From contig MVIG01000001.1 in the NCBI GenBank assembly GCA_002086835.1, forward strand, positions 310,001 to 374,000: a stretch of 64,000 nt of DNA. The letters are read 5' to 3'. Source of the DNA: Mycolicibacterium porcinum (GTDB lineage: Bacteria > Actinomycetota > Actinomycetes > Mycobacteriales > Mycobacteriaceae). A model generated the notes under the pieces. That model was not told the origin of the DNA, ran no database searches, and saw only the letters and a program-made list of their open reading frames with translations. Shown here one piece after another: positions 3,155 to 22,221 of this stretch (positions are counted from its first letter, which is position 1; each line of letters opens with the position of its first letter). The position numbers and the translations under genes were made by a program.

Positions 3155-3846
3155 CGCACGGCACCAGGAATTTCGGTGGGGCGCCGGCGCTGACCGACCT
3201 CGATCTGCAGATCCGCACGGGGGAGTTTCTCGCGGTGCTGGGTCCCAGCGGCAGCGGCAAGTCGACCTTGCTGCGGATCTGCGCCGGGCTGGACGACCTG
3301 AGTTCCGGGACATTGACCTGGTCCGGTGACGGTAGCCGGCCCCGTACCGGGGTGGTGTTCCAGCAGCCGCTGCTGATGCCGTGGCTGAGCGTCGCGGACA
3401 ACGTGGCCTTCGCTCGCCGGTTCGCCGCGCAACGGAGCGGGTTCGACGCCGACGACGCTGCGAAGCTCATCACCAGGTTTGGATTGGACCACCTGGCCGC
3501 GCGGTACCCCGACGAGTTGTCGGGTGGCCAGGCCCAGCGGGTGGCGATCCTGCGTGCCGTCGCGACCCGCCCGCAGCTGCTGCTCCTCGATGAACCGTTC
3601 AGCGCGTTGGATCCGGCCACCCGTACCGATCTGGTCGGCTGGCTGCGGGAGCTGGCACGGGAACTGGATGTCACCGTGGTGCTCGTCACCCACGATGTCG
3701 ACGAGGCGTTGTCTCTGGCGCAGCGCATCGTGCTGCTCGACGGGGGCCGGATCCGCGCGGACTGGACGGTCGGCAGTGATGGAACCCCCACGCGCGGTGA
3801 GATTCTCGCGCAGTATCGAGCCGATGCCGCGGTGGAGGTGCTGTGA
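3130..3846 (+). CDS. ABC transporter ATP-binding protein (nitrate/sulfonate/taurine type)
   Basis: A 238-residue ATPase subunit. Walker A GPSGSGKST at residues 38-46, Q-loop VVFQQPLLMPWL near 75-86, signature LSGGQAQR at 130-137, Walker B LLLLDEPFSALD near 150-161 and the switch histidine in VLVTHDVDEA near 188. The PWL after the Q-loop and overall length match SsuB/TauB/NrtD proteins. It is the third gene of the operon; its start lies 25 bases inside the upstream flavoprotein gene and its stop overlaps the binding-protein start (GTGA). It would energise uptake through the permease at 5006-5803. Confidence 0.92.
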   Translation: MGTHALRIAHGTRNFGGAPALTDLDLQIRTGEFLAVLGPSGSGKSTLLRICAGLDDLSSGTLTWSGDGSRPRTGVVFQQPLLMPWLSVADNVAFARRFAAQRSGFDADDAAKLITRFGLDHLAARYPDELSGGQAQRVAILRAVATRPQLLLLDEPFSALDPATRTDLVGWLRELARELDVTVVLVTHDVDEALSLAQRIVLLDGGRIRADWTVGSDGTPTRGEILAQYRADAAVEVL

Positions 3847-5009
3847 CGGTGCTGACCCGGCGCTCCCTGCTGGCCGGAGCGGCCGGATTGACCGCTGCCG
3901 GTGGACTCTTCGGCCTCGGCGGGCTGGCGCACAGTGCCGTGAGCAGTGCACCGGGCGACGAGGGTGCGCTGCGGGTGGGCTATCTGCCCATCACTGATGC
4001 CGCGCCGCTGCTGATGGCTCACAGTGCCGGGCTGTACCCCGCCGGGGAGGTGAGTTCGGCACGGCCGGTGCTGTTCCGCAGCTGGGCTGCGCTGGCCGAG
4101 GCATTCATCACGCGGCAGGTCGACGTCGTACACCTGCTGATGCCGATGGCCGTCCAGTTGCGCTACACCCTGGGCGCCGGGGTCCGCGTGCTGGGTTGGA
4201 ACCACACGAACGGATCGGCGCTGACGGTGGCGCCGCACATCCGGGAGTTGAGCGATCTGGCCGGCACTCAGGTGGCCATCCCGTTCTGGTGGTCGATCCA
4301 CAACATCGTGTTGCAGCAACTACTTCGGGCCCATGGCCTGCGACCGGTGTTGCGGCGCAGCGCTTCCCGTGCGGACCGAACCGTGGAACTGATCGTGATG
4401 AGTCCGTCGGACATGGTGCCCGCCCTGGCCAACGGCACGCTGGGCGGGTACGTGGTGGCCGACCCGTTCAACGCTGTCGCGCAGATCAAGAAGATCGGCC
4501 ACATCCACACCTTCCTCGGCGACGTCTGGCGCGATCACGCCTGTTGCGCCCTGGTCACGCGGGAGGACGTCATCGCGAGCCGACCGCAGGCCGTGCAGGC
4601 CGTCGCCGATGCGGTGGTGGGCGCGCAGCAGCGCATCGATGGCGACCGCGCGGCCGCGGCGACGGCGCTGACCGGCGGTAGGTATCTACCGCAGCCGACA
4701 CCGGCGATCGCACTGGCGCTCACCTATCCGAAACCGCCTTATCCACTGGCACATCCGGATTGGCAGCCACAGCGCCTCGGGTTTCAACCCTTCCCGTATC
4801 CGAGCTTCACCCGGCGTCTCGTCGAGGCCATGCATGACACCGTGGTCGACGGCGACCGCCGGTTCCTGGACCGGCTCGACCTCGATGCGGTGCACACCGA
4901 TCTGGTGGAAGACCGATTCGTCCGCCGGGCCCTCGCCGCTCACGGCGGGCCGAGCGCCTTCGGACTGACCGCCGACCTCACCCGAACCGAACAGGTGCAA
5001 CCGCTATGA
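3843..5009 (+). CDS. ABC transporter substrate-binding protein with Tat signal
   Basis: A 388-residue exported protein. The N-terminus carries a twin-arginine motif (LTRRSLLAGAAG) followed by a hydrophobic segment, as expected for Tat export. The body is the NMT1/SsuA/NrtA fold: LRVGYLPITDAAPLLMAHSAG near residue 40, the recognition stretch DLAGTQVAIPFWWS in the middle, and a helical C-terminal lobe. It starts at a GTG overlapping the ATPase stop, and its own stop overlaps the permease start. The substrate is probably an organosulfur or nitrogen compound by analogy to the family; the sequence alone does not say which. Confidence 0.88.
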   Translation: MTVLTRRSLLAGAAGLTAAGGLFGLGGLAHSAVSSAPGDEGALRVGYLPITDAAPLLMAHSAGLYPAGEVSSARPVLFRSWAALAEAFITRQVDVVHLLMPMAVQLRYTLGAGVRVLGWNHTNGSALTVAPHIRELSDLAGTQVAIPFWWSIHNIVLQQLLRAHGLRPVLRRSASRADRTVELIVMSPSDMVPALANGTLGGYVVADPFNAVAQIKKIGHIHTFLGDVWRDHACCALVTREDVIASRPQAVQAVADAVVGAQQRIDGDRAAAATALTGGRYLPQPTPAIALALTYPKPPYPLAHPDWQPQRLGFQPFPYPSFTRRLVEAMHDTVVDGDRRFLDRLDLDAVHTDLVEDRFVRRALAAHGGPSAFGLTADLTRTEQVQPL

Positions 5010-5803
5010 CCATTGCCTTCGCCAACAAAGCCCAGACATCCGACGGTGTTCCGAGCTGGTCGGGCCGTTTCGCGCCGCCGGTCGTCGCCATCCTGGTTGC
5101 CGTCGTGCTGTGGTGGTTCGCAACCTCGGTGCTCAGCGGACCAGAATCGGTATTGCGTCAGACCGCGCCGCAGCGTGTCTTCCCGGCGCTGGCCGGGCTT
5201 CTCGAACGCGGCGTGCTGCTCAGCGATCTCGGCGTCAGCCTGTGGCGGTTGTTGATCGGCCTGGCCGTCGCGGCCGTGATCGGGATGCCGCTGGGCTTGT
5301 TGATCGGGTCCTCTGGCGTCGCCGAACGCGCCGGTGGGCCGATCATCGCGTTCCTGCGGATGATCTCACCCCTGTCGTGGACACCGATTGCACTGGCGGT
5401 GTTCGGCATCGGTAATCAGCCGGTGATCTTCCTGATCGCCGTGGCCGCGGTGTGGCCGGTGCTGCTGAACACCGCGGCGGGCGTGCGCGCCGTGGACCCG
5501 GGGCTGCTCAACGTGGCGCGCTCATTTCACGCCACGCGCTGGGAGTTGCTGCTCGCGGTGGTCCTGCCGGCGATCCGCACTCACGTGCAGACCGGGATCC
5601 GGCTGGCGCTGGGCGTCGCCTGGATCGTCCTCGTGCCCGCCGAGATGCTCGGGGTGCGTTCGGGTCTGGGCTATCAGATCCTGAACGCCCGCGACCAGCT
5701 GGCCTACGACCAGGTGGTCGCGGTCATCGTCGTGATCGGCCTGCTGGGATTCCTGCTCGACGCTGCCGCGCGCTGGCTGTTGAATCCGGCCCGTCGCGGC
5801 TGA
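5006..5803 (+). CDS. ABC transporter permease (SsuC/TauC/NrtB type)
   Basis: A 265-residue inner-membrane permease with six or so hydrophobic segments and the BPD_transp_1 domain; the EAA-like loop is in the stretch ARSFHATRWELLLAVVLPA (around residues 170-190), which contacts the ATPase. It follows the binding protein with a four-base overlap (ATGA) and is the last gene of the operon that begins at 1605. The next gene (5846-7192) is convergent and 43 bases away. In that gap the bases CTGAGGC and GCCTCAG form a weak inverted repeat that might end transcription. Confidence 0.9.
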   Translation: MTIAFANKAQTSDGVPSWSGRFAPPVVAILVAVVLWWFATSVLSGPESVLRQTAPQRVFPALAGLLERGVLLSDLGVSLWRLLIGLAVAAVIGMPLGLLIGSSGVAERAGGPIIAFLRMISPLSWTPIALAVFGIGNQPVIFLIAVAAVWPVLLNTAAGVRAVDPGLLNVARSFHATRWELLLAVVLPAIRTHVQTGIRLALGVAWIVLVPAEMLGVRSGLGYQILNARDQLAYDQVVAVIVVIGLLGFLLDAAARWLLNPARRG

Positions 5804-5845: not shown

Positions 5846-7192
5846 TCACCCGACGGTCCGGATCAGCTTCTTGTTGACGAACTCGCCGATGCCGAGCGTG
5901 CCGAGTTCGCGGCCGAAACCTGATCGCTTGATGCCACCGAAAGGCAATTCGACCCCGTCGGCCTGCACTCCGTTGATGAACACCATGCCGGCGTCGATCT
6001 TCGCGGCGACCCGTTTGGCTTGTTCCGCGTCGGTCGTGAAGACGTAGGAGCCCAGCCCGAATGGGGTGTCGTTGGCCAGCTCCAGAGCCTCATCTTCCGA
6101 CCCTGCCTTGAAAACCATCGCGATGGGGCCGAACAGTTCTTGGTAGTAGACGTCGTTGTCGGGCTTGACGTTGGTCAGCACACCGGTCGGGAAGTACGCA
6201 CCGTTGCGTTCCCCGGCGCTGGTGAGCGTCGCGCCCTGTTCGACGGCACTGTCCACCTGGGCCTGCAACCGGTCAGCGGCCAATTCCGATGACAGCGGGG
6301 TGATTCCGTCGGCAGCGGCGAGCACGGCGGCGGTGAATTTCTCCAGGAACGCGTCGTAGAGTTCGTCGGCGACGATGAAGCGCTTCGCCGCATTGCACGC
6401 CTGCCCGGTGTTGTCCAGTCGAGCCGCCGCCGCCTTGGCGACGGTGTCATCGAGATCGTCGGTGGACAGCAGGATGAACGGGTCCGAGCCGCCCAATTCC
6501 AGGACGACCTTCTTCAGGTTGCGGCCGGCGATTTCGGCGACGGCGGCACCGGCGCGCTCGGAGCCGGTCAGCGAGACCCCAGCCACCCGTGGATCTTCGA
6601 TCAGCGTGGCCACCTGCTCGTTGGTGGCGTAGATGTTGACATACGCCCCGGCCGGGAACCCGGCGTCATCGAAGATCTGCTGGATCGCCGCGGCCGACTC
6701 CGGGCACTGCGGGGCGTGCTTGAGCAGGATCGTGTTGCCGACACACAGATTGGGACCGGCGAACCTGGCGACCTGGTAGGCCGGGAAGTTCCACGGCATG
6801 ATGCCCAGGAGGACACCGTAGGGGCTGTTGGTGATCACCGCGTCGCCGGTGCCGTCGAGCAGTTCGATCGGCTGGTCGCGCAGGATGGCCTCGGCGTGAT
6901 CGGCGTAGTACTCGTAGATCGAGGCGCTGAACTTGACTTCACCGATCGCAGCGTCGCGCGGCTTGCCCATCTCACGCACGATGATCGAACCGATTTCGTC
7001 CGCGCGCTCGGCATGCAGTTCGCCGACGCGACGGATGAGGGCCGCGCGCTCGGCAACCGTCGTTTCGCGTGCCCACGTCCGGCTCGCTGAGGTGGCCGCA
7101 GACAGGGCGGTGTCGATCTCGGCGTCGGTGGCGGTCGGGTACTTCTTGACGACGTCGCCGGTGGCCGGGTTGGTCACGACATACAGGCTCAT
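5846..7192 (-). CDS. NAD(P)-dependent succinate-semialdehyde dehydrogenase (Sad/GabD1-like)
   Basis: A 448-residue aldehyde dehydrogenase. Family landmarks are the catalytic asparagine region IMPWNFPAYQ, the cofactor-fold GSERAG, the glutamate motif LELGGSDPF and the catalytic cysteine in NTGQACNAAKRF. The serine in GGSDPF and the overall length match the Sad (YneI) and mycobacterial GabD1 group of succinate-semialdehyde dehydrogenases. It is the last gene of the minus-strand operon that starts at 14568, 25 bases after the reductase gene. In this context it would oxidise an omega-aldehyde released from an amine (succinate or glutarate semialdehyde, or a gamma-glutamylated aminoaldehyde). The exact aldehyde is uncertain. 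Confidence 0.85.
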   Translation of the reverse strand: MSLYVVTNPATGDVVKKYPTATDAEIDTALSAATSASRTWARETTVAERAALIRRVGELHAERADEIGSIIVREMGKPRDAAIGEVKFSASIYEYYADHAEAILRDQPIELLDGTGDAVITNSPYGVLLGIMPWNFPAYQVARFAGPNLCVGNTILLKHAPQCPESAAAIQQIFDDAGFPAGAYVNIYATNEQVATLIEDPRVAGVSLTGSERAGAAVAEIAGRNLKKVVLELGGSDPFILLSTDDLDDTVAKAAAARLDNTGQACNAAKRFIVADELYDAFLEKFTAAVLAAADGITPLSSELAADRLQAQVDSAVEQGATLTSAGERNGAYFPTGVLTNVKPDNDVYYQELFGPIAMVFKAGSEDEALELANDTPFGLGSYVFTTDAEQAKRVAAKIDAGMVFINGVQADGVELPFGGIKRSGFGRELGTLGIGEFVNKKLIRTVG

Positions 7193-7217
7193 TGGTGTTC
7201 TCCAGTCTTACGCGTGG

Positions 7218-8174
7218 TCAGTAGAGTTCGATGACGAGTTTGTCGCTGAGAGAGCGGGATACGCACAGCGCCATTTCCTCGTTGTTGGCCTTGACGGTCG
7301 CCGACAGGCAGTTGTCGCGGTGGTCCGGAATGCCCTCGGCGACACCGGAGACGCAGGATCCGCAGATGCCCTCCCCGCACGATCTGAACACGTCGCAGCC
7401 GGCTTCCTCGAGTACGTCGAGAATCGAGCGGTCGGCAGGGATCTCGAACACCTCACCGGTGGTCAGTTCGACGGTGAACGCCTTGTCGCCGGAGGTGTCG
7501 ACTTCCTTCGGCGTGAACGCCTCGAGGTGGATGTGGTCCGCGCCGACAGCCGGGGTGAACGAGGTGACCACTTGGTTCATGAATCCTTCCGGGCCGCAGG
7601 TGTATACATGCGTGCCGGCCGGCATGGTCGATGCCATCTGCTCGAACAGCGCGGGGTGCTCGCTACGCGGCACACCGATGTGCAGCGTGACGAAGTCCCG
7701 GTACTCGACTCGCTCGGTGAGGAAGTCGTCGAAAGCCATCTCCTCCCGCGACCGGGCGAAGTAGTGCAGCTCGAAGTCGGCACCCCAGCTGTACAGCTCG
7801 AACGCCATGCTCATCAGCGGCGTGAGGCCGATGCCGCCGGCGATCAGAATGTGCTTGGCGGCGTCCGGCACGATGCCAAGCATGTTGCGCGGCTTGCTGA
7901 TCTTGAGGTGATCGCCGACCTGTAGCTCATGCATGGCAGCTGAGCCACCGTGCGGCCCTTCCTTTTTCACTGCGACCCACATCGACGAATCGTCTTTGGG
8001 GGAGCCGGCCAGTGAGTACTGGCGAAGCACCCCGGTGGGGCCGGTCACGTCGATGTGGGCCCCGGCACGCCATTCGCTGAACGGGGACCCGTCGAGCTGC
8101 TCCAGCCGCAGGCCTCGGATGTCGGGTGTCTCGACCTGGATCTCCGCGATCCGGACCACGATGCTGTTTTCCAT
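7218..8174 (-). CDS. PDR/VanB-type ferredoxin reductase with fused [2Fe-2S] domain
   Basis: A 318-residue reductase of the phthalate-dioxygenase-reductase type. The order is a flavin-binding barrel (QYSLAGSP near residue 74), an NAD-binding domain (HILIAGGIGLTPLMSM near 125), and a plant-type ferredoxin domain at the C-terminus with cysteines in FRSCGEGICGSC and ALCVSRS. Such single-chain reductases feed electrons to Rieske oxygenases and to some P450s. No Rieske oxygenase is present here; the only oxygenase in the operon is the P450 at 11813-13018, which makes it the likely partner. Its start codon overlaps the upstream amidotransferase stop by one base (TGATG), so the two are translationally coupled. 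Confidence 0.88.
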   Translation of the reverse strand: MENSIVVRIAEIQVETPDIRGLRLEQLDGSPFSEWRAGAHIDVTGPTGVLRQYSLAGSPKDDSSMWVAVKKEGPHGGSAAMHELQVGDHLKISKPRNMLGIVPDAAKHILIAGGIGLTPLMSMAFELYSWGADFELHYFARSREEMAFDDFLTERVEYRDFVTLHIGVPRSEHPALFEQMASTMPAGTHVYTCGPEGFMNQVVTSFTPAVGADHIHLEAFTPKEVDTSGDKAFTVELTTGEVFEIPADRSILDVLEEAGCDVFRSCGEGICGSCVSGVAEGIPDHRDNCLSATVKANNEEMALCVSRSLSDKLVIELY

Positions 8175-8965
8175 CAGTGGGCCTCCGGGGCAGGCGCGCC
8201 GGCCGCGATGAAGCCGGCGAGCAGTTGGTAGAGCGGTTCGAGGGGCCCGTCGTCATCTTCCGGGTGGAACTGCACGCCCAGCACCCAGTCCGTCGGGTGT
8301 TCCACGCCTTCGACGATGCCGTCGAGGGCCCGCGCGGCGACGACGAGCTCATCGGCGACGGCATCGACGGCCTGGTGGTGGCCGGACCGCACGACGAGGG
8401 GACCGGCACCGAGGATGACGGCCAGCCGGGTGTCGGGTAGTACCTCGACCTTCTCGTCGATGAAAAGGTGCTCGCCCGGCCCGCCGCGGTGGAGCTGGTA
8501 GTCGGTGATGTCGCCGATGATGGTGCCCCCGTAGCAGACGTTGATCAGCTGCGAACCGCGGCAGATGCCAAGCACCGGCCGACCGGCGTCGACATAGGCC
8601 CGGATCATGTCGAGGCTGACCCGGTCGGCCTGAGCGTCGACCCCGTAGGAGTTCGGCAGCGGCCCGTCCGGTCCGCCGTAGCAGGCCGCGGCGATATCAC
8701 CACCACCGAGCACCAGCAGGCCGTCGGCATCGACGACCACCTCGACCGATCCGGGTTCGGAGGTGTCCACCAGCTCGAAGCTGGCATCGAGCTCGGCCAG
8801 TGCGTTCAGAGCGGTCCGGGTGAAGCGGCGGTGCAGTGCCGCGACCGGTGCGGTGAGATCGGGGAAATTGAGGGACACCAACACCGCGACATGCGGCCGT
8901 CCCGGCTCCCGGGTACGAGTGCCGGACGGTTCGACTTCGTCGCGTAGGACGACGGGGTTGTTCAT
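8174..8965 (-). CDS. class I glutamine amidotransferase-like gamma-glutamyl hydrolase (second copy)
   Basis: A 263-residue protein with the class I amidotransferase (C26 peptidase / PuuD) fold: LGICRGSQLIN holds the nucleophilic cysteine and VQFHPED holds the histidine and glutamate of the triad. PuuD-type enzymes hydrolyse gamma-glutamyl amides such as gamma-glutamyl-GABA. It overlaps the first copy (8962-9678) by four bases (ATGA). Because the two neighbours differ considerably in sequence, they are either paralogues with different acyl acceptors or subunits of one enzyme. The start at 8965 is fixed by this overlap; longer frames upstream would run deep into the neighbour. Confidence 0.85.
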   Translation of the reverse strand: MNNPVVLRDEVEPSGTRTREPGRPHVAVLVSLNFPDLTAPVAALHRRFTRTALNALAELDASFELVDTSEPGSVEVVVDADGLLVLGGGDIAAACYGGPDGPLPNSYGVDAQADRVSLDMIRAYVDAGRPVLGICRGSQLINVCYGGTIIGDITDYQLHRGGPGEHLFIDEKVEVLPDTRLAVILGAGPLVVRSGHHQAVDAVADELVVAARALDGIVEGVEHPTDWVLGVQFHPEDDDGPLEPLYQLLAGFIAAGAPAPEAH

Positions 8966-9678
8966 ACCAGGGCCTCCATCCTGGATTTGGCGGCTCGTTC
9001 GGAGAGGTCGGCGAAAAGCGCTGCGTCGCTGCGCGAGGATACGTGCAGGTCCTCGGGATGCCATTGCACGGCAAGCAGATTCCCGCTGGTGTGCTCCAGG
9101 GCTTCCACACAGCCGTCGTCCGCGGTGGCGACGACCCGCAGGTCTCTACCGAGCGCGCCGATCGCCTGATGGTGATACGACGACACCGGGATCCGGGTGG
9201 ATCCCACGACCTGGAGCAGCCGGCTGCCCTCGGCCACGGTCACGTCGTGTACGGCGTTGCCGTGCCCGACGTCGCTCGGGGTGAGGTGCTGGATCAGGTC
9301 GCCGCCCTGCACCACGTTGAGGATCTGCATACCGCGGCAGATCGCGAGGGTCGGAATGCCGAGTTGCACAGCGCAGGTCATGACCGCCATGTCGAACGCA
9401 TCCTGGTGTGCCACCGGATCTTCGGTCTCCGCAACGGGCTGCTGCCCGTAGTGCCGTGGATCCAGATCCGCGCCTCCGGGCATGCAGATGCCGTCGAACC
9501 GGGCCAGCCGGTCGGCCAACTCCGCGGCCGGGTCACCGTCCGGGCCGTGCAGAACGAGCGGCTCGCCACCGGCGGCCCACACCGCCTCGCAGATGGCCTC
9601 CGCGGCCAGGGTCGCGCTGAAGCGCAGGATCGGCACGCGGGCGGCGCGCCGGCCGGGCACCGCGATCAGTGGTCGCAT
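8962..9678 (-). CDS. class I glutamine amidotransferase-like gamma-glutamyl hydrolase (first copy)
   Basis: A 238-residue PuuD-like amidotransferase. The oxyanion/loop motif GICMPGGADLDP lies near residues 64-75, the cysteine nucleophile is at about 114 in LAICRGMQILN, and the His-Glu pair is in VQWHPEDLH near residue 207. The family removes a gamma-glutamyl group from an amide. It lies one base downstream of the solute-binding-like gene and overlaps the second amidotransferase by four bases. Next to a glutamine-synthetase-like ligase, the natural reading is that the ligase adds glutamate to an amine and one or both hydrolases remove it after oxidation. Confidence 0.87.
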   Translation of the reverse strand: MRPLIAVPGRRAARVPILRFSATLAAEAICEAVWAAGGEPLVLHGPDGDPAAELADRLARFDGICMPGGADLDPRHYGQQPVAETEDPVAHQDAFDMAVMTCAVQLGIPTLAICRGMQILNVVQGGDLIQHLTPSDVGHGNAVHDVTVAEGSRLLQVVGSTRIPVSSYHHQAIGALGRDLRVVATADDGCVEALEHTSGNLLAVQWHPEDLHVSSRSDAALFADLSERAAKSRMEALV

Positions 9679-9679
9679 G

Positions 9680-10381
9680 TCAGCTCACCTCGAAGGGGTA
9701 ATCCAGCGTCGGTAGCCACTGCGCCCACGCGGATTTCAGGCGGCCGTCGGCGATGATCCGTGCCAAGGCACCGTCAAGGGCGGCAAGGGTTTCGGGGCGG
9801 TCCTTGGCGACGGCGATACCCCACGGGTTGTTGGTCTTGACGACGAACGCGAGCTCGAAATCCGGGTCGGAGTCGCCGAGCGGGACGAAGACGACGTCGT
9901 CGTCACACACTGCGTCGACCTTGCCCGAGCGCAGTGCACCCAGCATGTCCTCGTAGACGTGCTCCGACTCGAACTCGATCACCTCGGCACCGGTGAACGA
10001 GGCGGCCAGGTTGTAGTTGGCCGAGGCGCGGATGGCGGCGATCCGCTTGCCGGCCAGACCTGTTGGATCGGACACCGCCTCGCCGCGGCGCATCAGGATG
10101 CCTTCGTGGAAGATCCCGTACGGCCGGGTGAAATCGGCCTGCTCCAGGCGGGCGGGGATGATGCCCTGGCCGCACAGCACACCGTCCACCCGATGGTCGC
10201 GGGCGGCGGGCAGCATGTCGCCCCACGGCATGATGACCCACTCGAGCTCCCGGTCCAGTTCGGCGGCAAGGAGTTCGGCCACGGCCGGTTCGTATCCCGA
10301 CCGGCCGCCGGGTGACGAGGCGAGCCCGAACAATGGTGGAGCGTCGGCGTCGATGCAGGCCAGGCGCAACAGCTCGGTCAC
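9680..10381 (-). CDS. solute-binding-protein-like (SBP_bac_3) protein without signal peptide
   Basis: A 233-residue protein beginning with a GTG at 10381 that overlaps the glutamine-synthetase-like stop (GTGA). It has the amino-acid-binding periplasmic fold: LACIDADAPPLFG at the start, the hinge region VDGVLCGQGIIPARLEQADFTRPY in part, GLAGKRIAAIRAS and KVDAVCDDDVVF in the second lobe. The N-terminus goes straight into the first beta strand and shows neither a Sec/Tat signal nor a lipobox cysteine. No ABC permease or ATPase is in the operon. It is therefore either a cytoplasmic ligand-binding or carrier protein, or an enzyme of cyclohexadienyl-dehydratase-like kind. Function is unknown. Confidence 0.75.
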   Translation of the reverse strand: MTELLRLACIDADAPPLFGLASSPGGRSGYEPAVAELLAAELDRELEWVIMPWGDMLPAARDHRVDGVLCGQGIIPARLEQADFTRPYGIFHEGILMRRGEAVSDPTGLAGKRIAAIRASANYNLAASFTGAEVIEFESEHVYEDMLGALRSGKVDAVCDDDVVFVPLGDSDPDFELAFVVKTNNPWGIAVAKDRPETLAALDGALARIIADGRLKSAWAQWLPTLDYPFEVS

Positions 10382-11763
10382 GGGGTGTCCTCCCAGTACA
10401 TCGTGCGCTCCCAGTCGGTGATCGAGCTGTTGAACCGCGCCCACTCGTCGGTCTTGTACTCCAGCAACAGGTTGCCCAGCGGGGCGCCCAGCGCATTGAT
10501 CAGGTAGTCGTCGGCTTTGAACGCAGCCAGTGCATCACCGAGAGTCAGCGGCAGTTCGCCGAACAACTCGGCGTCCGTGGATTCGTAGCTCGATCCGACA
10601 GTGGGCGCGCCGGGGCTGATCTGGTTCTTCAGCCCGTCGTCGATCGAGACCAGCATCGCCGCGTGGGTCAGGTACGGGTTGCACGCGGCATCGGGAAGTT
10701 TGTACTCGAGCCGGCCGTTGGCCGACAGGCGCACCGTGCAGGTCTTGTTGTCGAGGCCCCAGTTGATCTTCGACGGGGCGAACTGGCCCGCGTCCCAGTA
10801 TCGCTTGTACGAGTTGACCGTCGACCCCATGATCAGCATCGCGCCGGGGGTATGCGTGAGCAGGCCGCCCAGGGCGTACTGGCCCTCCTCGGTCAGGTGC
10901 AGATCGTGTCGGCCCTCGTCGGCCAGGATGTTGACGTCGCCGCGCCAGAGGCTGAAGTTGTGGTGGCAGCCGTTGCCCATGTAGCCCTGCCCGGGTTTGG
11001 GCATGAAGCTTGCCTCGATGCCGAGTTCTCGGGCGACCTGCTTACAGATCTGCCGGTAGGTCATCAGCCGGTCGGCGGTCGCGTCGCTGTGGTCGAACAT
11101 CCAGTTGAGCTCGACCTGACCGGCGTCCTCGAAGTCGCCTTCGACCATCTGGAAGCCCATGAATTTCGCGTAGGTGATCACCTTCTGGTAGATCGCGCGG
11201 TATCGCTCGAGGTGCTCGATGTGGTAGGCGGGACTCGAATCGGGGCGGAAGGAGGTGGTGAAACCCGGTCCTTCCCACGTCATCTCGGGCTCGGTGCCGG
11301 TACGGAGCTCCAGGCCGGTGCGATCGGTGAACGCGGCATGCAGTCGCTTCATCAGTCCGCGGGTGTCGGTCGGCAGGGGAGCCCCGGGATCGACCGCCAC
11401 GTGGTCGGGCTCGTACAGGCTGCAGAAGACCCGTGCGGTCTTGTGGTCCCAGGGCAGCACCGAGAAAGTGTCGAGGTCGGGCATCGCGCAGTACTCGGCG
11501 GCGCCGACACCGCCACCGAGTAGTACGCCCTCGCGGGTGGTCTGCAGGTTGGCGATGGCGGTGCGGTGCTGCATGACACCGCGCGTCGCAAGCCGGGCGA
11601 ACTGGTCTGCGGGAACGACTTTTCCGACCACTCTCGCGGTGATCGTGACGGCCTGGAAGTAGACGAACTCCACGCCGTACTCCTCGATCGCCGCCAGTGC
11701 GGCATCGAGGGCTCCGGGGGCGGAATTGGCGTCGCGGTGTTGGTCGAGCGCTGTAGTGCTCAT
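10378..11763 (-). CDS. glutamine-synthetase-like gamma-glutamyl-amine ligase
   Basis: A 461-residue member of the glutamine synthetase family (GlnA3/GlnA4/PuuA/IpuC-like). Visible motifs are TGTEPEMTW and EGDFEDAGQVELNW (metal and glutamate site), GNGCHHNFSLWRGD (in place of the usual GSGMHxHQS), NSYKRYWDAGQFAPSKINWG, and EYKLPDAACNPYL near the C-terminus. Departures from true glutamine synthetase at the NR and RxP positions, and its place beside gamma-glutamyl hydrolases, point to ATP-dependent gamma-glutamylation of an organic amine rather than ammonia assimilation. The ATG at 11763 is chosen because the conserved N-terminus starts there; the P450 stop is 49 bases upstream. Confidence 0.85.
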   Translation of the reverse strand: MSTTALDQHRDANSAPGALDAALAAIEEYGVEFVYFQAVTITARVVGKVVPADQFARLATRGVMQHRTAIANLQTTREGVLLGGGVGAAEYCAMPDLDTFSVLPWDHKTARVFCSLYEPDHVAVDPGAPLPTDTRGLMKRLHAAFTDRTGLELRTGTEPEMTWEGPGFTTSFRPDSSPAYHIEHLERYRAIYQKVITYAKFMGFQMVEGDFEDAGQVELNWMFDHSDATADRLMTYRQICKQVARELGIEASFMPKPGQGYMGNGCHHNFSLWRGDVNILADEGRHDLHLTEEGQYALGGLLTHTPGAMLIMGSTVNSYKRYWDAGQFAPSKINWGLDNKTCTVRLSANGRLEYKLPDAACNPYLTHAAMLVSIDDGLKNQISPGAPTVGSSYESTDAELFGELPLTLGDALAAFKADDYLINALGAPLGNLLLEYKTDEWARFNSSITDWERTMYWEDTP

Positions 11764-11812
11764 GGACGCGGACCTTTCGGGATGAGTGTGGATGGTGGGA
11801 CGGACGGCCCGC

Positions 11813-13018
11813 TCAGGCGGGGGTGAAGCTGATCGGGAGTGTGTTCGCACCGGTGTTGCCCGAGTCGGGCATCCAGTCGGCACCGTCGAGCAGCTTCGGG
11901 TCGCGGAGCCGGCGGGCCAGCAGCGGTAGCGCCTCGGCCATGTCGGCCCGGGCGACGAAGTGCCCCAGGCAGTGGTGCGCACCGCCGCCGAAACCAAAGT
12001 GCGGCTTGCGTTCTGCGGCGATGTCGAAACTGGGCGCCCCGAACACCCGTGGATCGGTGCCCGATGATTCGCTGAACAGGTGGACGGTGGTTCCGGCGCT
12101 GATCGCCAGTCCCTGGTATTCGAAGTCCTCGGTCGCCTCGCGGGTGACCCAGCGGACGGTCGGGTTGGTCCGCATCACCTCTTCGACCGCCTTGCCGCCA
12201 AGTTCGGGGTTCTGCGCCAGCAGATCCCACTGTTGGGGGTGGTCGATGAAGCTCTGCATCGCCAGACCGAGTTGGTTGCGGGTGGTGTCGTAGCCGCCGA
12301 AGATCATCAGCACGAAGGCATCGCGCAGTTCGTCGGGGGACAGCCCGCCGTCGTTCTTCGCTTGCACCAGGGTCGTCGTGAAATCGTCGCGCGGGTTGGC
12401 CTCCCGGTCTGCGATCGCGGCATCGGCGTACTCGAACAGTGTCGCCAGGGCGGCCTCTATCCGCGGCAGCTCCTGCTTGAAGGTGATGCCCATCGCCAGC
12501 CCGATGGTGGCGGACTCCCGGGCGATGATCTGCCACTCCGACTCGGGCAGCCCGAGCATGATGGCGATGACGCGGGCCGCGTACGGGTCGGCGAACTCGC
12601 CGATGAATTCGCACTCGCCGCGCTCGGCGAAAGCATCGATGAGTTCGCCTGCCAGCGCCTGGAATCGAGGCACGAGGCCCTTGATCAACCGTTTGGAGAA
12701 CGCCGGGTTGAGCAGGGTTCGCAGCCGCCGGTGCTCATCGCCTTCTTTGTTCAGGATCCAGCTGTTCCACCAGTCCAGGAACGGTCCATCGGTGACGCCG
12801 TTGTGAGCCGGCCAGTGCACGCTGCCCTGGCGCAGGCTCGGATGGCGCATGAGCTCGCTGACCTCGGCGTAGCGCAGGACGGCGATCCCGTACTCGGTGT
12901 GGGCGAACCAGCTGGCTTCCCTGGCCTCGTGGACCACGGCCGAGGTGATCGAGAACGCGGGATCGGTCACGTTCAGGCGTGGGGCCTCGGTGTCGGTGGT
13001 GATGGTGTTCGGAGTCAC
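11813..13018 (-). CDS. cytochrome P450
   Basis: A 401-residue soluble bacterial P450. The I-helix oxygen-activation motif is FGGYDTTRNQ (about residue 240), the ExxR motif is EEVMR (about 280), and the heme cysteine is about residue 350 in FGFGGGAHHCLGHF. The start is a GTG at 13018 preceded by a strong AGAGGAGAG ribosome-binding site; longer frames upstream run into the permease gene. No small ferredoxin gene is adjacent, so electrons probably come from the VanB-type reductase in the same operon. The substrate would be an amine or a gamma-glutamylated amine, judged from the neighbours. CYP151 (piperidine/morpholine P450) was considered but could not be confirmed from memory. Confidence 0.93.
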   Translation of the reverse strand: MTPNTITTDTEAPRLNVTDPAFSITSAVVHEAREASWFAHTEYGIAVLRYAEVSELMRHPSLRQGSVHWPAHNGVTDGPFLDWWNSWILNKEGDEHRRLRTLLNPAFSKRLIKGLVPRFQALAGELIDAFAERGECEFIGEFADPYAARVIAIMLGLPESEWQIIARESATIGLAMGITFKQELPRIEAALATLFEYADAAIADREANPRDDFTTTLVQAKNDGGLSPDELRDAFVLMIFGGYDTTRNQLGLAMQSFIDHPQQWDLLAQNPELGGKAVEEVMRTNPTVRWVTREATEDFEYQGLAISAGTTVHLFSESSGTDPRVFGAPSFDIAAERKPHFGFGGGAHHCLGHFVARADMAEALPLLARRLRDPKLLDGADWMPDSGNTGANTLPISFTPA

Positions 13019-13056
13019 GGCGACTCTCCTCTGGTGATCGTTATCTGGCGGGTCAG

Positions 13057-14568
13057 CTAAACCGGCTGCGTCGCAACGGGTTCCGTATGGGATTCGGTCG
13101 TGGCCGTCGGGATCGCGTCGGCGTGCGGTGTGTTGCCGTTGGAATGGGAGCGGACGACGGCCATGTAGAGCAGTCCCAGCCCGATGACGATGGCCGACAT
13201 CAGCAACACGATGTAGTTGTCGTACCAGGGCGCCTCGGGTGTGCGGGGCCAGCAGATGTTGATGATGGCCGCCACGCCGTAGACCAGGGCGCCGACGTTG
13301 ACCAGCACTCTCCATCGGCCGAGGCGGTACTTCCCGCTCGGGTCCCAACCTTTGATGCGGGCCCGCAAGGCGGCGAACACGACCATCTGGAAGGCGATGT
13401 AGATGCCGACCGAACCGAAGCTGATGAGCTTGGTCAGCGCGTCGGTGGAGACGATCGATCCGATGATCAGAGCGGCGGGGATGACCGCTGCGGCGAGCAA
13501 CGCATACGGGGGCACGTGGCGTTTCTTGTCGAACCGGGCCCACAGCTTGGAGCCGACGATCATGTCGTCGCGTCCGTACGAGTAGAGCAGCCGGCTGGCT
13601 GCCGCCTGCAGGCTCAGGGCACATGACACGAACGAGATCAGCACGATGCAGAGCACGATCTTGGATCCGACCGGGCCGAAGGCCGTGGCCAGCACGGTCG
13701 AGATCGGATCGACGTCTTCGCCGCGGATCACCGCGCCGATGTCGACGACCGACAGAATGAGGCTGAGGCAGACGAAAGTGGCTGCGGCGCCGCCGATGTA
13801 GATCGTCCGTCGCATCGACTTCGGGATCTGCACACCAGGGTTACGGACCTCCTCGGCGACGTCACCGCAGGCTTCGAAACCGTAGTACTGGAAGACGCCG
13901 ATCAGGCTGGCCGCCAGAAACGCGTAGAGGAAGCTGTGCTCACCCTGCGCCCCGAAGCTGTCGAACAGCACGCCCAACCCGTGGTGACGTTGGGTGAGCA
14001 GCAGCCACCCGCCCACGATCAGCGCACCGATCAGCTCGGCGGTGAAGCCGAATATCGCGAAGTAGCTCAGCATCTTGGTGCCGGTGAGATTGATGACCGT
14101 GGCCAGCAGCAGCACGATCAGCGCGCATACCACCGTGGTGTAGACCGTCGAGGTCAAACCTAAGACGGTCGCCACGAACGGGCCGGCGCCGTAGGCCACA
14201 CCGGCGATGGTGGCCAGCAGCGCGAAGATGTACACCCAACCGGTCATCCAGGCCCATTTGCGGCCCCACAGCCGGCGGGCCCACGGGTATACACCGCCGG
14301 CCACCGGGAATTGCGCGACGATCTCGCTGAACACCAGCGCGACCAGCATCTGGCCGAAGCCCGCGATCAGCAGGCTCCAGATCATCGGAGGTCCCGCCGC
14401 GGCGAGCGCGAATGCGAAGACGGTGTAGATGCCGACGACCGGCGACAGATAGGTGAAGCCCAGCGAGAAGTTCGCCCAGAGGCTCATGTCTCGTTTGAAC
14501 TCGGATTGGAAACCGAGCGCGGCGAGTTGCGCGTGGTCCTCGTCGTGCGGCTCGGGTGTTTTCGACAT
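13057..14568 (-). CDS. APC family amino acid / amine permease
   Basis: A 503-residue, 12-segment membrane transporter of the amino acid-polyamine-organocation family. Typical stretches are the first helix SLGFTYLSPVVGIYTVFAFA, the second-helix end VAQFPVAGGVYPWARRLWG and the loop GFEACGDVAEEVRNP. The C-terminal tail after the last helix is hydrophilic. It is the first gene of the eight-gene minus-strand operon and stands 38 bases upstream of the P450. It probably imports the amine that the operon degrades. The divergent regulator gene begins at 14712. Confidence 0.9.
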   Translation of the reverse strand: MSKTPEPHDEDHAQLAALGFQSEFKRDMSLWANFSLGFTYLSPVVGIYTVFAFALAAAGPPMIWSLLIAGFGQMLVALVFSEIVAQFPVAGGVYPWARRLWGRKWAWMTGWVYIFALLATIAGVAYGAGPFVATVLGLTSTVYTTVVCALIVLLLATVINLTGTKMLSYFAIFGFTAELIGALIVGGWLLLTQRHHGLGVLFDSFGAQGEHSFLYAFLAASLIGVFQYYGFEACGDVAEEVRNPGVQIPKSMRRTIYIGGAAATFVCLSLILSVVDIGAVIRGEDVDPISTVLATAFGPVGSKIVLCIVLISFVSCALSLQAAASRLLYSYGRDDMIVGSKLWARFDKKRHVPPYALLAAAVIPAALIIGSIVSTDALTKLISFGSVGIYIAFQMVVFAALRARIKGWDPSGKYRLGRWRVLVNVGALVYGVAAIINICWPRTPEAPWYDNYIVLLMSAIVIGLGLLYMAVVRSHSNGNTPHADAIPTATTESHTEPVATQPV

Positions 14569-14645
14569 AGGCGGGCCGGCTTTCTGTGTCAGGGGCCATG
14601 TTCAAGAGCGGGCTGTGAGGCAAGCCATAGGATTAAAACATAAAG

Positions 14646-14666
14646 GTTCATAGTTCATAGTTCAAG
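14646..14666. promoter_or_regulatory. three tandem heptamers, candidate GntR operator
   Basis: In the 143-base gap between the APC permease and the GntR-type regulator lie three consecutive seven-base units, GTTCATA, GTTCATA, GTTCAAG. The surrounding stretch 14625-14680 is unusually AT-rich for this genome. The repeats lie 46-66 bases upstream of the regulator start and 78-98 bases upstream of the permease start. A role as the binding site of the adjacent regulator is inferred from position only. Confidence 0.5.
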
Positions 14667-14711
14667 ACTTATCGCGTACGATCGTCGAAATTGCCCCTGG
14701 CAGGAGGAACG

Positions 14712-15464
14712 GTGGCGGTCGAACAGTTGCGCGGCCTGACCGCGGTCGGGGCTGTGTTGTCGCCGCTGGCGGGCAGCGGCCCGCGCACCGACGCCGTGGT
14801 GTCGCGGATCTCGGCCGCGATCGGCCTCGGGGTGATCTCCGACGGGGAGCAACTTCCGAGCGAGATCGAGCTGGCCACCCAGCTGGGCGTATCGACCATG
14901 ACCTTGCGTGAAGCGTTGGCCATCCTGCGCGAGCAGGGGCTGGTGGTGACGAAGCGAGGGCGGGGAGGCGGAAGCTTCGTGCGTGCCTCCGCCGAGGACG
15001 TGCACACGCGGTCGCTGGCGTTGCTGCAAGAGCTGACCGTTGAGGGGTTGCGTGACCTGGGTGACGAGCACTTCGCGGTCGCCGGTGCCACCGCGGTTCT
15101 CGCGACCCGTCGCGCCGTCACCGCTGACATCGCGCGGCTTCGGACACTGGCCGACCGTCTTGCGGTCAGCGAGGACGCGATCTCCAGCCGACGCGCCGAC
15201 AGCCGATTCCAGATCGAGGTCGCGGTCTGTTCCCAATCCGCCCGGCTCACCCGGGCAGAGGTCAACATTCAGGCTGAGCTGGCGGCCATGGTCTGGTTGC
15301 CACGGCTGGGGTTGGATCCGGCGGACGAGGCGGCCACACATCACCAACTCGTCGACGCGATCGAAGGCGGAGATCAAGCTCGAGCGCGATCATTGGCCGA
15401 GGAGTACAGCGCGCTGACCATCCGACGGCTGATCGGCCTGCGAATGGAACTCGCCAGAACATGA
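14712..15464 (+). CDS. FadR/GntR family transcriptional regulator (FCD type)
   Basis: A 250-residue regulator started at the GTG at 14712, which has a strong AGGAGGA site four bases upstream (an ATG at 14691 would add seven residues but would bury that site). Residues about 25-85 form the winged helix: ISDGEQLPSEIELATQLGVS and TMTLREALAILREQGLVV followed by the wing KRGRGGGSFVRA. The C-terminal helical domain resembles the FCD effector domain of FadR-like proteins. It diverges from the amine operon at 14568-5846 and shares an upstream region with tandem repeats, so it is the obvious regulator of that operon. The Cache-domain gene 75 bases downstream may be co-transcribed. Confidence 0.85.
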   Translation: MAVEQLRGLTAVGAVLSPLAGSGPRTDAVVSRISAAIGLGVISDGEQLPSEIELATQLGVSTMTLREALAILREQGLVVTKRGRGGGSFVRASAEDVHTRSLALLQELTVEGLRDLGDEHFAVAGATAVLATRRAVTADIARLRTLADRLAVSEDAISSRRADSRFQIEVAVCSQSARLTRAEVNIQAELAAMVWLPRLGLDPADEAATHHQLVDAIEGGDQARARSLAEEYSALTIRRLIGLRMELART

Positions 15465-15539
15465 GTCGCGGGTTGATCTGGCATCCTGCCGGGCGCCGGT
15501 GCCTAGGCTGACGCCGATACAGACGGAAGGGCATTCGAG

Positions 15540-16295
15540 ATGATGGCGAACGGAACGGACCGGTCGTTTCGCGCCGATAGCGGCGATGCGGCGCTCGAGT
15601 TGGTCGCTACGGCGGTGACCTCGCTCGTCGAGGACATCTTCGCCTCGCTGCGCACCGTCGCGGAGGCCACCGGAGCGCTGTGGAATCGCATCGAAGACTC
15701 TGGCGCCCAGCCGAGTTCGGCCGACCTCGCGGCACTTCGCGACCCGGTGGTCGCTGAACTGCAGCGACAGGCGGCACTGGTGAACGGCGTCGGATTCGTC
15801 GTCGCCGACCGGGCATTGGTCGACGTTCCGCGTTACCTCGAGTGGTGGCAGCCGAATTCCAAACCGGGCGGCCAGGCGCAACGGCTCGAACTGGATCTCA
15901 ACCCGGGCAGCGAGTACTTCTACGACTACTCCACGATGGAGTGGTTTTCCATACCCCGCGACCGCGGCACCCGGTGGGTGCACGGCCCGTATCTGGACTA
16001 CACCGGCGTCGACCTCTACGTGTGTACGTTCGCCACTCCGGTGACCACCGCACGAGGGGAATTCATCGGCGTGGCAGGGGCCGATGTGCCCGTAGCGCGC
16101 CTCGACGCCGCGCTGTTGCCGACGTTCGCCGCGCATCGCACGCCGCTGGCGCTCACCAACGCGGAGGGGCGCGTGATCGTGGCCAACGACGCCGAGCACG
16201 TCGCTGGATCCAAGCTCCAGGACCCGAGTTCGCCTACAGCGCTGCCGGTTTCATCGACACCATGGTCGTTGGTGTCGCTGAGCGGCAACCCGTGA
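15540..16295 (+). CDS. soluble Cache-domain (PDC sensor-like) protein
   Basis: A 251-residue protein starting at ATG 15540. After a helical N-terminal part (residues 1-70) it has a Cache-like ligand-binding fold: FYDYSTMEWFSIPRD, HGPYLDYTGVDLYVCTFATPV and GEFIGVAGADVPV, the pattern seen in extracellular sensor domains of chemoreceptors and kinases. Here there is no signal peptide, no membrane segment and no output domain. It follows the GntR regulator and ends 23 bases from the convergent glutamate dehydrogenase gene. It may be a cytoplasmic amine or amino-acid sensor working with the regulator, but this is inference. Fold assignment is moderately sure. Confidence 0.65.
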   Translation: MMANGTDRSFRADSGDAALELVATAVTSLVEDIFASLRTVAEATGALWNRIEDSGAQPSSADLAALRDPVVAELQRQAALVNGVGFVVADRALVDVPRYLEWWQPNSKPGGQAQRLELDLNPGSEYFYDYSTMEWFSIPRDRGTRWVHGPYLDYTGVDLYVCTFATPVTTARGEFIGVAGADVPVARLDAALLPTFAAHRTPLALTNAEGRVIVANDAEHVAGSKLQDPSSPTALPVSSTPWSLVSLSGNP

Positions 16296-16318
16296 GTTCT
16301 CGCCGGCCGCCGGCCGGC

Positions 16319-19300
16319 TCAGCGGACGAGGCCGTCGGTGTGCCGGAGGAGTAGCCCGAGTTCGGCGAGTACGGTCGCCGCTCGGGCAACGTCGATGACG
16401 CTGTCGCGACCCAGTTCGGCGCGCACCCGGTCGAACCGCTCCAGCGCCGTCGCCGCCCCGTGACGCCACGCGCTCAGTGCTTCCTCGGGATCGGCGGCCA
16501 GGCTCAGCACCGCGGCCGTGAGCTGATGGTGCGTATCGACGAGCTGGTCGTGCAGGGCGCCCGCGCCCATGGCCTCCCACCAGGTCGATGCGGTGTGTGC
16601 CTGCAGTGCGCGTTCGATCCAGTCCAGGTCCAGCCGGTCGTCGATCGTGAGAAACACGCCGGCCACCACCGTGATATCGACGCCCATTCGGGTGGCTGTC
16701 CGGCTGAGGTCGAACGACACCGGCCGTAGTCGCGGCCAACGGTCGCCGAAGTCACGGCGTCGGTCGTGCAGGGTGCCGACGTGTCGCTGATAAGCCGCGA
16801 TGGTGGTGCCGATGTCGAGTTTGCCGGTGTGCCGGCGCAAGAGGCGGCCCGCGGTGTGTTCGATGAAGTGCTGCACCGAGTGAAGCGCAGCGTTGCGCTG
16901 CGCCGGGCTGCCGGCCGTCTGCTCCAGCGCCTCGCGCCACATCTCGTCGATTCCGAAGAGATGCCGCACCACGGTGTAGGCCGCCGCGACCGTCGGTGTG
17001 GAGACGCCCAGCCGCTCGTCGAGTTGATAGATCAGGCCCGGACCGACGTGGTTGATCAGGTCGTCGGCGATCTGGGTGGCGATGATCTCCCGGGCGAGCC
17101 GATGGCACGAGATATCGGCATCGAGGTGGGTGCGGAACGGCGTGGGGAAGTAGTCGCGCAACGCGGTGGTGAAGATCGGATCGTCGGGTATCGAGGAGTC
17201 CAGCAACTCGTCGCGCACCACATTCTTGGAATGCGCAAGCAGCACTGCGATCTCCGGGCGGGTCAGCCCGCGACCAGCGCGGGTACGCGAGACGAGTTCG
17301 GCTCTGCTGGGCAGCATTTCGGCGGCGCGGCTGATTCCGGAAACCTGCTCGAGATTCTCGATCAGTCGTTCGTGGCGATTGAGCAGCGCAGGGGCTTGCG
17401 CTTCGGCCAGATCGATTGCCAGTACCTGATTCTCGCAGCCGCGCAGCACCGCGGCGGCGACCTCTGCCTGGCAGCCGGTCAACATCGCGTCGCGCCCGGC
17501 AGCGTCGACGCGCTCCGCGCGCAATGCCGATTGCAGGGCGATCTTGAGATTGACCTCGCGGTCGGAAGAGGCCACGCCCGCGGCGTTGTCGATGAAGTCG
17601 GCGTTGATTCGGCCGCCGGCCAGAGAGTATTCGATGCGGGCCCGCTGCGTCAGCCCGAGGTTCCCGCCCTCACCGATCACCGACACCCTGAGCTGGTCTG
17701 CGTCGACGCGGACGGCGTCGTTGGCCGGATCCGCCGCGTCGGTGTTGCTTTCGCGCGCCGACTTCACGTAGGTGCCGATGCCGCCGTTCCACAGTAGGTC
17801 CACATCCGCGGTGAGGATGGCGCGGATGACGTCGTTCGGGGTGACCGTTTCGGCGGTCATGCCGAGCGCCTCGCGAGCCGCCGCGGACAGAACGATTCGT
17901 TTGGCGTTGCGCGACCAGACCCCACCGCCGGGGGACAGGGCGGCGCGGTCGTAGTCGTCCCAGCTGCTGGTCGCCATCGCGGCCAGTCGGGTCCGCTCGG
18001 CGTATCCGGCCCGCGGGTCTGGGTCCGGGTCGACGAAGATGTGGCGATGATCGAAGGCGGCGACCAGTTTGAGGTTGGGCGACAACAGCATTCCGTTGCC
18101 GAACACGTCACCTGACATGTCCCCGATACCCACGACGGTGATGGGGTCGGCGTCGGCGTCGCGTCCGAGGCCGGCGAAGTGGGCGCGGACCGACACCCAT
18201 GCGCCGCGAGCGGTGATGCCCATCTCCTTGTGGTCGTAGCCCGCCGAACCGCCGGACGCGAACGCATCTCCCAACCAGAACCCCCGGTGCGTTGCCAGCT
18301 CGTTGGCGACATCAGAGAATCGGGCGGTGCCCTTGTCGGCGGCCACCACCAGGTAGGTGTCGTTTCCGCCGTATGTGACGGTCGCTTCGGGCGGGCAGAC
18401 ATCATCACCGAGCAGGTTGTCGGTGAGATCGAGCAGCCCCGAGACGAAGGTGCGGTAGCACTGTTCGACGCTGACCGCCGGGTTCTTGCGCACGAACGCG
18501 CCCTTGGCGCCGGCCGGAACGATCGGTGAATTCTTGACGGTCTGCGTCTTCATCAGTCCGAGAACCTCGGTGCGGTAGTCCTCGGGCCGGTCGGAGAACC
18601 GAAGCCCGCCGCGCGCAACGGGGCCGCTGCGGGCGTGGATCCCTTCGACGTCGTCACTGTCGACGAAGATCTCTCGGAACGGCACGATCGGGCCGCGTGG
18701 GTGGAGCTTCGAGGAATCGATCAGATATGAGGCGTGGCGTTTGGTCCCGCCGTCGGGATCACGCTGAAACCAGTTGGTGCGCAATGTCGCCGATACGAAG
18801 GAGGCGAATGACCGCAGTATCCGGTCCTCGTCGACCGACGTGGTCGCCTCGATCAGGCCCGCCACGCGGTCCTGCAGGCCGGCCACCCGTGAATCCCGGT
18901 CACGCAGTTGCGGATCGAACCGCGCCGTGAACAGCTCCACCAGGGTGGCCACGAAGTCGGCGTGGCCCGTCAGGGTGTCGAGCACATAGCTGTCCGACAT
19001 GGCCAACCCGGCCTGGCGCACGAACCGGCTGACCGAGCGCACCAGGACGACCTCGCGCCACGTGATACCTGCCGTGATGACCAGGCGCGCATAGTCGTCG
19101 ATCAGGAAGCCATCGCTGCGCGCAGCGAACGCATCGGCCAGCTTGTTCTCGCTGTCGACACGCCACTCGTGCGGCGTGACGAAATCGAACACTGCCGCGG
19201 TCAACGGCAGGTCGGGAGTTGCGACCGGATGCTGCCCCGCCACCTGAAGGCCGAAATGCTCGAACAGGGCACAGGCCTCGGTCAGCAACGGCACCGGGTC

Positions 19301-20958: not shown

Positions 20959-20991
20959 TTCACCCACCGAATCTCGCTTAGGAGTCACTTC

Positions 20992-22191: not shown

Positions 22192-22221
22192 GCCGCCGTA
22201 ACCCCTGATCGGAGCAATCGG

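Follow-up and report, generated by a model that had tools for sequence, protein, structure and literature searches.

The subject of this analysis is an operon of eight genes in Mycolicibacterium porcinum, built around a cytochrome P450 and a glutamine-synthetase-like (GS-like) ligase and located on the minus strand (14568-5846) of a window of 64,000 nucleotides (contig MVIG01000001.1, positions 310,001 to 374,000), to which the coordinates below refer. We consider, with a probability of about 0.55, that the operon encodes a pathway of the Pip/Mor (CYP151) kind which is induced by an amine, most likely piperidine, and breaks it down. Operons of this kind are already known; the hydrolases, the sensor and a set of genes for five-carbon (C5) compounds fill out the mechanism. 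What is new is the apparent exchange of the reductase: a clade of 11 loci is without the family ferredoxin and carries a reductase whose kin belong to Rieske operons.

Gene content and conservation of the operon

The genes were assigned to families with Pfam and NCBIfam, and the start codons are our own assignment. The first gene encodes an APC-family permease (13057-14568; PF13520), which likely serves amine uptake, and is followed by the CYP151-like P450 (11813-13018; PF00067), a protein of 401 amino acids with a GTG start at 13018 and the heme motif FGFGGGAHHCLG. Next come the putative gamma-glutamyl-amine ligase, the GS-like gene (10378-11763; PF00120), an SBP_bac_3-like (SBP-like) protein (9680-10381; PF00497), two gamma-glutamyl hydrolases of peptidase family C26, A (8962-9678) and the divergent B (8174-8965; both PF07722), a PDR-type reductase with a C-terminal Fer2 (2Fe-2S) domain (7218-8174; PF00111 and an NAD domain) and an aldehyde dehydrogenase of the semialdehyde type (5846-7192; PF00171), whose top NCBIfam match, succinate-semialdehyde dehydrogenase, is under its cut-off. 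An earlier, sequence-only reading of this DNA had named seven of the eight products as they were found here and had omitted the SBP-like gene. The overlaps of 1-4 bases that it described in the centre are present at three junctions (ligase/SBP-like gene and hydrolase A/B, 4 nucleotides each; hydrolase B/reductase, 1 nucleotide), and the start codon of the SBP-like gene sits within the ligase stop codon, but the SBP-like gene and hydrolase A are separated by a gap of 1 nucleotide. The outer gaps are 38 (permease/P450), 49 (P450/ligase) and 25 nucleotides (reductase/aldehyde dehydrogenase). No domain of a Rieske oxygenase or of a PuuB-type FAD amine oxidase was detected by Pfam in the eight genes, in agreement with the same reading.

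In a survey of the genus, 47 loci with the P450 family, from 45 other genomes, were searched by tblastn for neighbours within 9.5 kb. The ligase and the SBP-like gene were found at all 47, hydrolase A at 46, hydrolase B at 44, a GntR regulator and a dCache gene at 46 each and the permease at 45. Because the ligase, the SBP-like gene and the hydrolases recur near the P450 in 44-47 of the 47 loci, it is clear that the grouping is not due to chance. Of 396 genus genomes, 51 gave P450 matches at E <= 1e-95; in five of these (322-332 bits) the match is another P450, which leaves 46 genomes with the P450 family itself, and the family member that scores just above the five, at 338 bits, is a broken copy. 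Three of 396 genomes in a sample of the phylum (E <= 1e-100), the M. porcinum genome among them, and 15 of 399 in a family-level sample (E <= 1e-90) also gave matches.

Among named loci, the best 80 of 488 belong to Actinobacteria, Alphaproteobacteria and Halomonadaceae. The 43 of these that come from outside the genus and have flanks of 6 kb or more in both directions (Mycobacterium and loci with short flanks being excluded) contained a GS-like gene in 42 cases, an SBP-like gene in 32, a C26 hydrolase in 30 and an aldehyde dehydrogenase in 21. At L152, an alphaproteobacterial locus looked at in more detail, the next genes encode PAS and sigma-54 regulators and an ABC transporter. Additionally, the pairwise distances of the P450 correlate with those of the ligase (0.90), hydrolase A (0.90), hydrolase B (0.87) and the SBP-like protein (0.86), with maxima of 0.15-0.27 after shuffling, and also with those of the dCache protein (0.83), the GntR regulator (0.82) and the permease (0.73).

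The P450 of plasmid pGKT2, which we take to be Cyp151C (a name that reportedly comes from Indest in 2010), shows 70.6% identity to that of the window. The pip locus of M. smegmatis, reportedly described by Poupin in 1999, is said to have its P450 beside a GS-like gene. Many relatives from the genus show the order regulator, dCache, P450, small ferredoxin, ligase. As the relatives share the architecture of regulator, P450, ferredoxin and GS-like gene, the operon may be placed with the Pip/Mor operons (PipA of M. smegmatis, MorABC of Mycobacterium sp. HE5). The GntR regulator beside the P450 (14691-15464) and the downstream GS-like gene (10378-11763) are shared with Pip/Mor, whereas the small ferredoxin gene is absent from the window clade, which has the PDR-type reductase. 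According to excerpts of published accounts, CYP151-pipA, ferredoxin and glnA are adjacent in Mycobacterium (PMC10516948), the same P450-ferredoxin-GS order as in the ferredoxin-bearing relatives found here; saprophytic mycobacteria carry CYP151 (PMC5018878); growth on piperidine induces PipA, and morpholine is oxidised by MorA together with its ferredoxin and reductase (PMC9477822). A P450 gene of M. smegmatis adjoins IS1096 in an excerpt of PMC3662644, which agrees with the pip locus that Poupin reportedly described. A P450 beside a GS-like gene is not in itself new, since the pip/mor operons already have this pair (PMC10516948). The excerpts of these accounts omit hydrolases, an SBP-like gene and a dCache sensor.

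A predicted glutamyl-shield pathway

In true glutamine synthetases, a glutamate in the flap motif GYEAP handles ammonia. The ligase of the window has GQFAP at this place, and its best matches among solved structures are the glutamine synthetase 8ool, the methylamide synthetases 9qur and 7cql, which have tryptophan at the position of the flap glutamate, and Bacillus-type GS. We compared 126 family ligases, 105 of them distinct (from the 125 of 133 loci that passed a filter of 38% identity and 75% coverage, plus the window; weak or partial GS matches were dropped, and some genomes are duplicated across two collections). At the flap position 113 of them have F, the other 13 have W and none has E; E212, E218, H267, R321, R345 and E353 are retained in all 126. 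Since the flap glutamate is missing throughout, the gene very probably encodes a gamma-glutamyl-amine ligase, as the earlier reading had assumed, and no glutamine synthetase; with the other residues kept, this ligase is probably active. An ammonia-assimilating glutamine synthetase was rejected as a candidate on account of the same loss in the window and in 126 of 126 sequences. The genome has 12 genes with a GS catalytic domain; among the P450 matches listed for it, only the operon P450 and one at C14:42100 lie within 5 kb of such a gene. For most GS homologues of M. smegmatis, excerpts of the literature report the function as unknown.

Both C26 proteins match the PuuD structure 6vtv (hydrolase A, E 2.1e-17; hydrolase B, E 1.8e-9) as well as related solved hydrolases. 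The Cys-His-Glu triad is intact in both, its residues being retained by 99-101 of 101 A sequences and by 94 of 94 B sequences. At 7 of the 86 named or plasmid loci, hydrolases A and B are separated by an aldehyde dehydrogenase gene. In the SBP-like protein, R78, D160 and D161 are present in 111 of 111 sequences. No signal peptide was seen in the 12 N-termini inspected, and the protein is probably cytosolic; it is possible that it binds glutamate or gamma-glutamyl compounds. A role as a transporter component was rejected because of the missing signal peptide (12 of 12) and the lack of ABC genes in the operon.

Four genes on the plus strand are predicted to form a route from 5-aminovalerate to glutaryl-CoA (19219-24830). 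A class III aminotransferase of the 4-aminobutyrate/5-aminovalerate type (19219-20958, conserved from about 19630) exceeds the cut-offs of PRK06058 (701.5 bits, cut-off 639) and TIGR00700 (552.7 bits, cut-off 506.65). The putative glutaryl-CoA dehydrogenase (20992-22191) has 3swo, itself a glutaryl-CoA dehydrogenase, as its best solved structure (E 3.8e-251), its NCBIfam matches being acyl-CoA dehydrogenase models only, under cut-off. An aldehyde dehydrogenase (22222-23694; PF00171), with NCBIfam semialdehyde models under cut-off, probably serves the glutarate-semialdehyde step, and a family III CoA-transferase (23691-24830) probably the glutarate step; the latter has succinate--glutarate CoA-transferase as its top NCBIfam match (365.8 bits, cut-off 750), matches 9br7 at E 4e-89 and is nearest to glutarate/HMG types. 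It is this C5 set that puts piperidine ahead of pyrrolidine as the substrate. All four genes, at an identity of at least 45%, accompany the operon in 8 of the 86 named or plasmid loci (two of them Arthrobacter) and in 3 of the 47 genus loci; a further 19 named or plasmid loci and 27 genus loci, where the sampled stretches often end, have between one and three of the genes. The set precedes the operon in the window clade but comes after it in the other Mycobacterium clade, and its orientation differs too; hence a single inherited arrangement does not account for the association. L056, a more distant cluster, has a transaminase above both cut-offs within the P450 gene set itself.

Divergently from the operon, a GntR/FCD regulator (14691-15464, plus strand; PF00392, PF07729) is followed by a stand-alone dCache protein (15540-16295, plus strand; PF22673), a candidate intracellular amine sensor. 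An alignment of 11 loci revealed a conserved block with the repeated GAACTATG in the divergent promoter region (14633-14666), a candidate operator. The dCache residues W102, Y128, Y130, T163, P167 and D182 are conserved in 66 of 66 sequences and Y151 in 65, and a profile search retrieved receptors for amines and amino acids, including 3lib at E 4.7e-7. In excerpts of PMC10104139, 3lib is named as carrying the dCache_1AM motif, and Actinobacteria including Mycobacterium are stated to have intracellular amine sensors that consist of a dCache domain on its own and whose genes accompany that of a transcription factor (GntR in a figure legend). The window shows the same pairing; those excerpts leave the target operon unnamed, and the operon described here is a candidate for it.

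Taken as a pathway, the permease would import the amine, which the intracellular dCache protein and the GntR regulator would sense. The P450 would hydroxylate the carbon adjacent to the nitrogen and the ring would open to 5-aminopentanal; the GS-like ligase would then add glutamate to the amino group and so block re-cyclisation. The shielded aldehyde would be oxidised by an aldehyde dehydrogenase, and one or both C26 hydrolases would free glutamate and 5-aminovalerate, with the SBP-like cytosolic protein perhaps holding glutamate or gamma-glutamyl intermediates. Transamination, oxidation and CoA transfer by the products of 19219-24830 would lead from 5-aminovalerate through glutaryl-CoA to crotonyl-CoA.

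Such a scheme would follow the logic of the Puu pathway with a P450 replacing PuuB. A glutamyl ligase, an aldehyde dehydrogenase and a C26 hydrolase are in common with PuuA-D; the window differs in having a P450 instead of the FAD oxidase and two hydrolases, and its ligase matches the gamma-glutamylputrescine synthetase model only far under cut-off. Similarly, the aniline and 1-naphthylamine systems (AtdA, NpaA) share the GS-like ligase, the amidotransferase-like hydrolase, an oxygenase and a PDR-type reductase, but their oxygenase is a Rieske enzyme and that of the window a P450, though with a reductase of Rieske-operon kin. In literature searched for P450s with gamma-glutamylation or cyclic amines we found no description of such a module; these searches largely left subscription literature uncovered, so its absence there is unproven.

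Electron supply of the P450

A small ferredoxin gene was found at 28 of the 47 genus loci and a PDR-type reductase gene at 10; no locus has both, and nine have neither. The small ferredoxins show CxxHxxC...CP in 28 of 28 cases. No small ferredoxin was found in positions 1-25000 of the window or at the other ten loci of the reductase clade. A P450 tree with 110 rows places the window and the ten other reductase loci in a single clade (support 100), nested in a 14-row clade (support 97) with two ferredoxin-bearing loci, from Nocardioides and Millisia. The ten best reductase relatives outside the M. porcinum genome, the best of many, each belong to the operon of a Rieske dioxygenase, together with genes for its alpha and beta subunits and an SDR; an unrelated P450 stands beside the reductase in two of the ten. 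As one reductase clade is nested among ferredoxin-bearing loci and the kin of its reductase belong to Rieske operons, the comparison suggests a single exchange of the P450 electron supply, from the family ferredoxin to a reductase of the Rieske-operon type. In the window clade, this one-piece PDR-type reductase would feed the P450 in place of the small ferredoxin, and it is the likely electron donor.

The nearest solved structures of the reductase are P450-fused reductases (6kbh, presumably CYP116B46) and phthalate dioxygenase reductase. The self-sufficient P450s 6kbh and 6laa likewise combine a P450 with a reductase carrying its own 2Fe-2S domain, but they are fused and of another P450 family, while the window has separate genes. 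The electron route that had been called unusual in the sequence-only reading is so at the level of genes, with a ferredoxin in none of the 11 reductase loci against 28 of the 37 others; the fused P450 reductases give it a parallel nonetheless.

A second PDR-type reductase, 38% identical to that of the operon, is encoded at 36184-37113. On plasmids of Ruegeria and Paracoccus (L083, L086), a 55% identical P450 is accompanied by two GS-like genes and amidotransferases, with a 2Fe-2S ferredoxin at one locus and a diflavin-type reductase at the other; the electron partner thus varies widely in the family.

Alternative explanations and related loci

The order of the first two steps can be read differently. 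The ligase might act first and make a gamma-glutamyl amide, which the P450 would hydroxylate next to the nitrogen before glutamate is taken off by the hydrolases; for a cyclic amine the outcome is the same gamma-glutamyl amino-aldehyde. The ligase acts first in the Puu and aniline pathways. The ligase, the P450 and the hydrolases co-evolve, as judged from their distance correlations, and the P450 is accompanied by the ligase in 47 of 47 genus loci. However, free morpholine is the substrate of MorA (excerpts of PMC9477822), a 47% identical P450 in an ectoine-like gene set has no annotated GS-like gene within 9 kb and one named P450 locus (L147) is without GS, and we regard a ligase-first order as rather doubtful. 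Ligation after the P450 step appears at least as likely, because PipA and MorA act on free cyclic secondary amines, a chemistry that favours the P450 as the first enzyme. What had been proposed as a P450 version of glutamyl-shielded amine breakdown is therefore upheld in its core, the glutamyl handling of an amine together with a P450, which is well supported by the ligase flap, the hydrolase triads and the distances (r = 0.87-0.90); P450 action on the glutamylated amine itself is not established, as MorA oxidises free morpholine (PMC9477822, in part). An open-chain C5 amine such as cadaverine, glutamylated by the ligase and then oxidised by the P450 in place of PuuB, would suit the C5 glutaryl-CoA set as would any C5 omega-amino acid, and the ligase and hydrolases do resemble Puu. 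P450 action on plain primary diamines is unusual; the kin of this P450 oxidise cyclic secondary amines (excerpts of PMC9477822), and this substrate seems quite improbable. Excerpts of the same source read a GS-like gene next to a PipA-type P450 as serving nitrogen assimilation, assuming for Gulosibacter a glutamine synthetase that assimilates ammonia. For the gene of the window an ordinary enzyme of this sort, taking up ammonia from the P450 pathway, is hardly credible, given the flap glutamate missing in 126 of 126 sequences as in methylamide synthetases, the two gamma-glutamyl hydrolases encoded in the same operon and the 12 GS-domain genes that the genome already has.

Regarding the electron supply, the reductase might serve another partner and the P450 draw on a ferredoxin encoded elsewhere. 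The nine genus loci with neither gene nearby and the ten nearest relatives, which serve Rieske oxygenases, would agree with this. Yet the eight operon genes include no Rieske oxygenase, the reductase is present in 11 of 11 clade loci and a ferredoxin in none, and the clade is nested among ferredoxin-bearing loci; the nearest solved structure is a P450-fused reductase, and an unrelated P450 adjoins the reductase in two of the ten relatives. We therefore find another partner unlikely.

Several points weigh against a piperidine pathway of the Pip/Mor kind with its own electron donor. The nine loci with neither ferredoxin nor reductase imply that an encoded partner is sometimes dispensable, and the 11 reductase loci count as one evolutionary event. 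The CYP151 assignment of the relatives is presumptive, the placement with Pip/Mor being made by gene architecture. The C5 glutaryl-CoA set may be common in the genus also without the operon. Of the 43 loci outside the genus, 13 have no C26 hydrolase and 11 no SBP-like gene; ten of each are Alphaproteobacteria, which carry two GS-like genes. The distance correlations cover the genes of the module alone, and common descent contributes to them. At two genus loci (L058 and L059, excluded from the P450 tree and included in the 47-locus count), the P450 is broken into two frames with its neighbours intact.

Two neighbours of the operon were also considered. The glutamate dehydrogenase (GDH) gene (16319-19546) adjoins it in seven of the ten other clade loci and is missing in L169, L180 and L181; as it is also less conserved than the operon genes (76-88% identical in relatives, compared with 86-98%), it is probably a mere neighbour and not a member of the pathway, and the operon may have moved. 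ABC transporter genes (3130-5803) were found by tblastn beside the operon in 2 of the 10 clade genus loci (L029, a cut fragment, and L032).

A 47% identical P450 with a ferredoxin and a reductase was found with ectA, ectB and ectoine synthase on a plasmid of Streptomyces sp. NBC_00111 (6982-12146). In the M. porcinum genome, a second set on contig C40 (1-16571) comprises an XplA-like P450 (44%), a flavodoxin-like piece (54%) and an XplB-like reductase (39%), together with a GntR regulator, a permease, a GS-like gene, an aminotransferase, a C26 hydrolase and an aldehyde dehydrogenase. The xpl locus of pGKT2 from Gordonia sp. KTR9 (12485-19496) shares with the window an FCD regulator, a cache protein, the P450 mentioned above and a GS that is 80% identical over residues 1-397. 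There the ligase is cut at about residue 397 and the RDX genes xplB and xplA come after it; no hydrolases or SBP-like gene were found at this locus. The xplB and xplA genes of KTR9 thus seem to sit in an operon of Pip/Mor-like kind.

Tentatively, and with the odds somewhat against it, we suggest that the glutamyl shield under an intracellular amine sensor is a general feature of Pip/Mor (CYP151) operons, in which the SBP-like cytosolic protein would pass gamma-glutamyl intermediates from one to another among the ligase, the P450, the dehydrogenase and the hydrolases, and that in the window clade the P450 was rewired to take electrons directly from a captured reductase of a Rieske system. A testable role for the ligase, the glutamyl shielding of an amino-aldehyde, follows from the conservation of the hydrolases, the loss of the ammonia residue and the presence of the C5 set. 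If this is true, the orphan intracellular amine sensors of Actinobacteria would gain a target operon, the window clade would offer a natural swap of a P450 electron partner for a Rieske-type reductase, and the explosive-degrading xpl genes of pGKT2 would lie inside a former amine operon.

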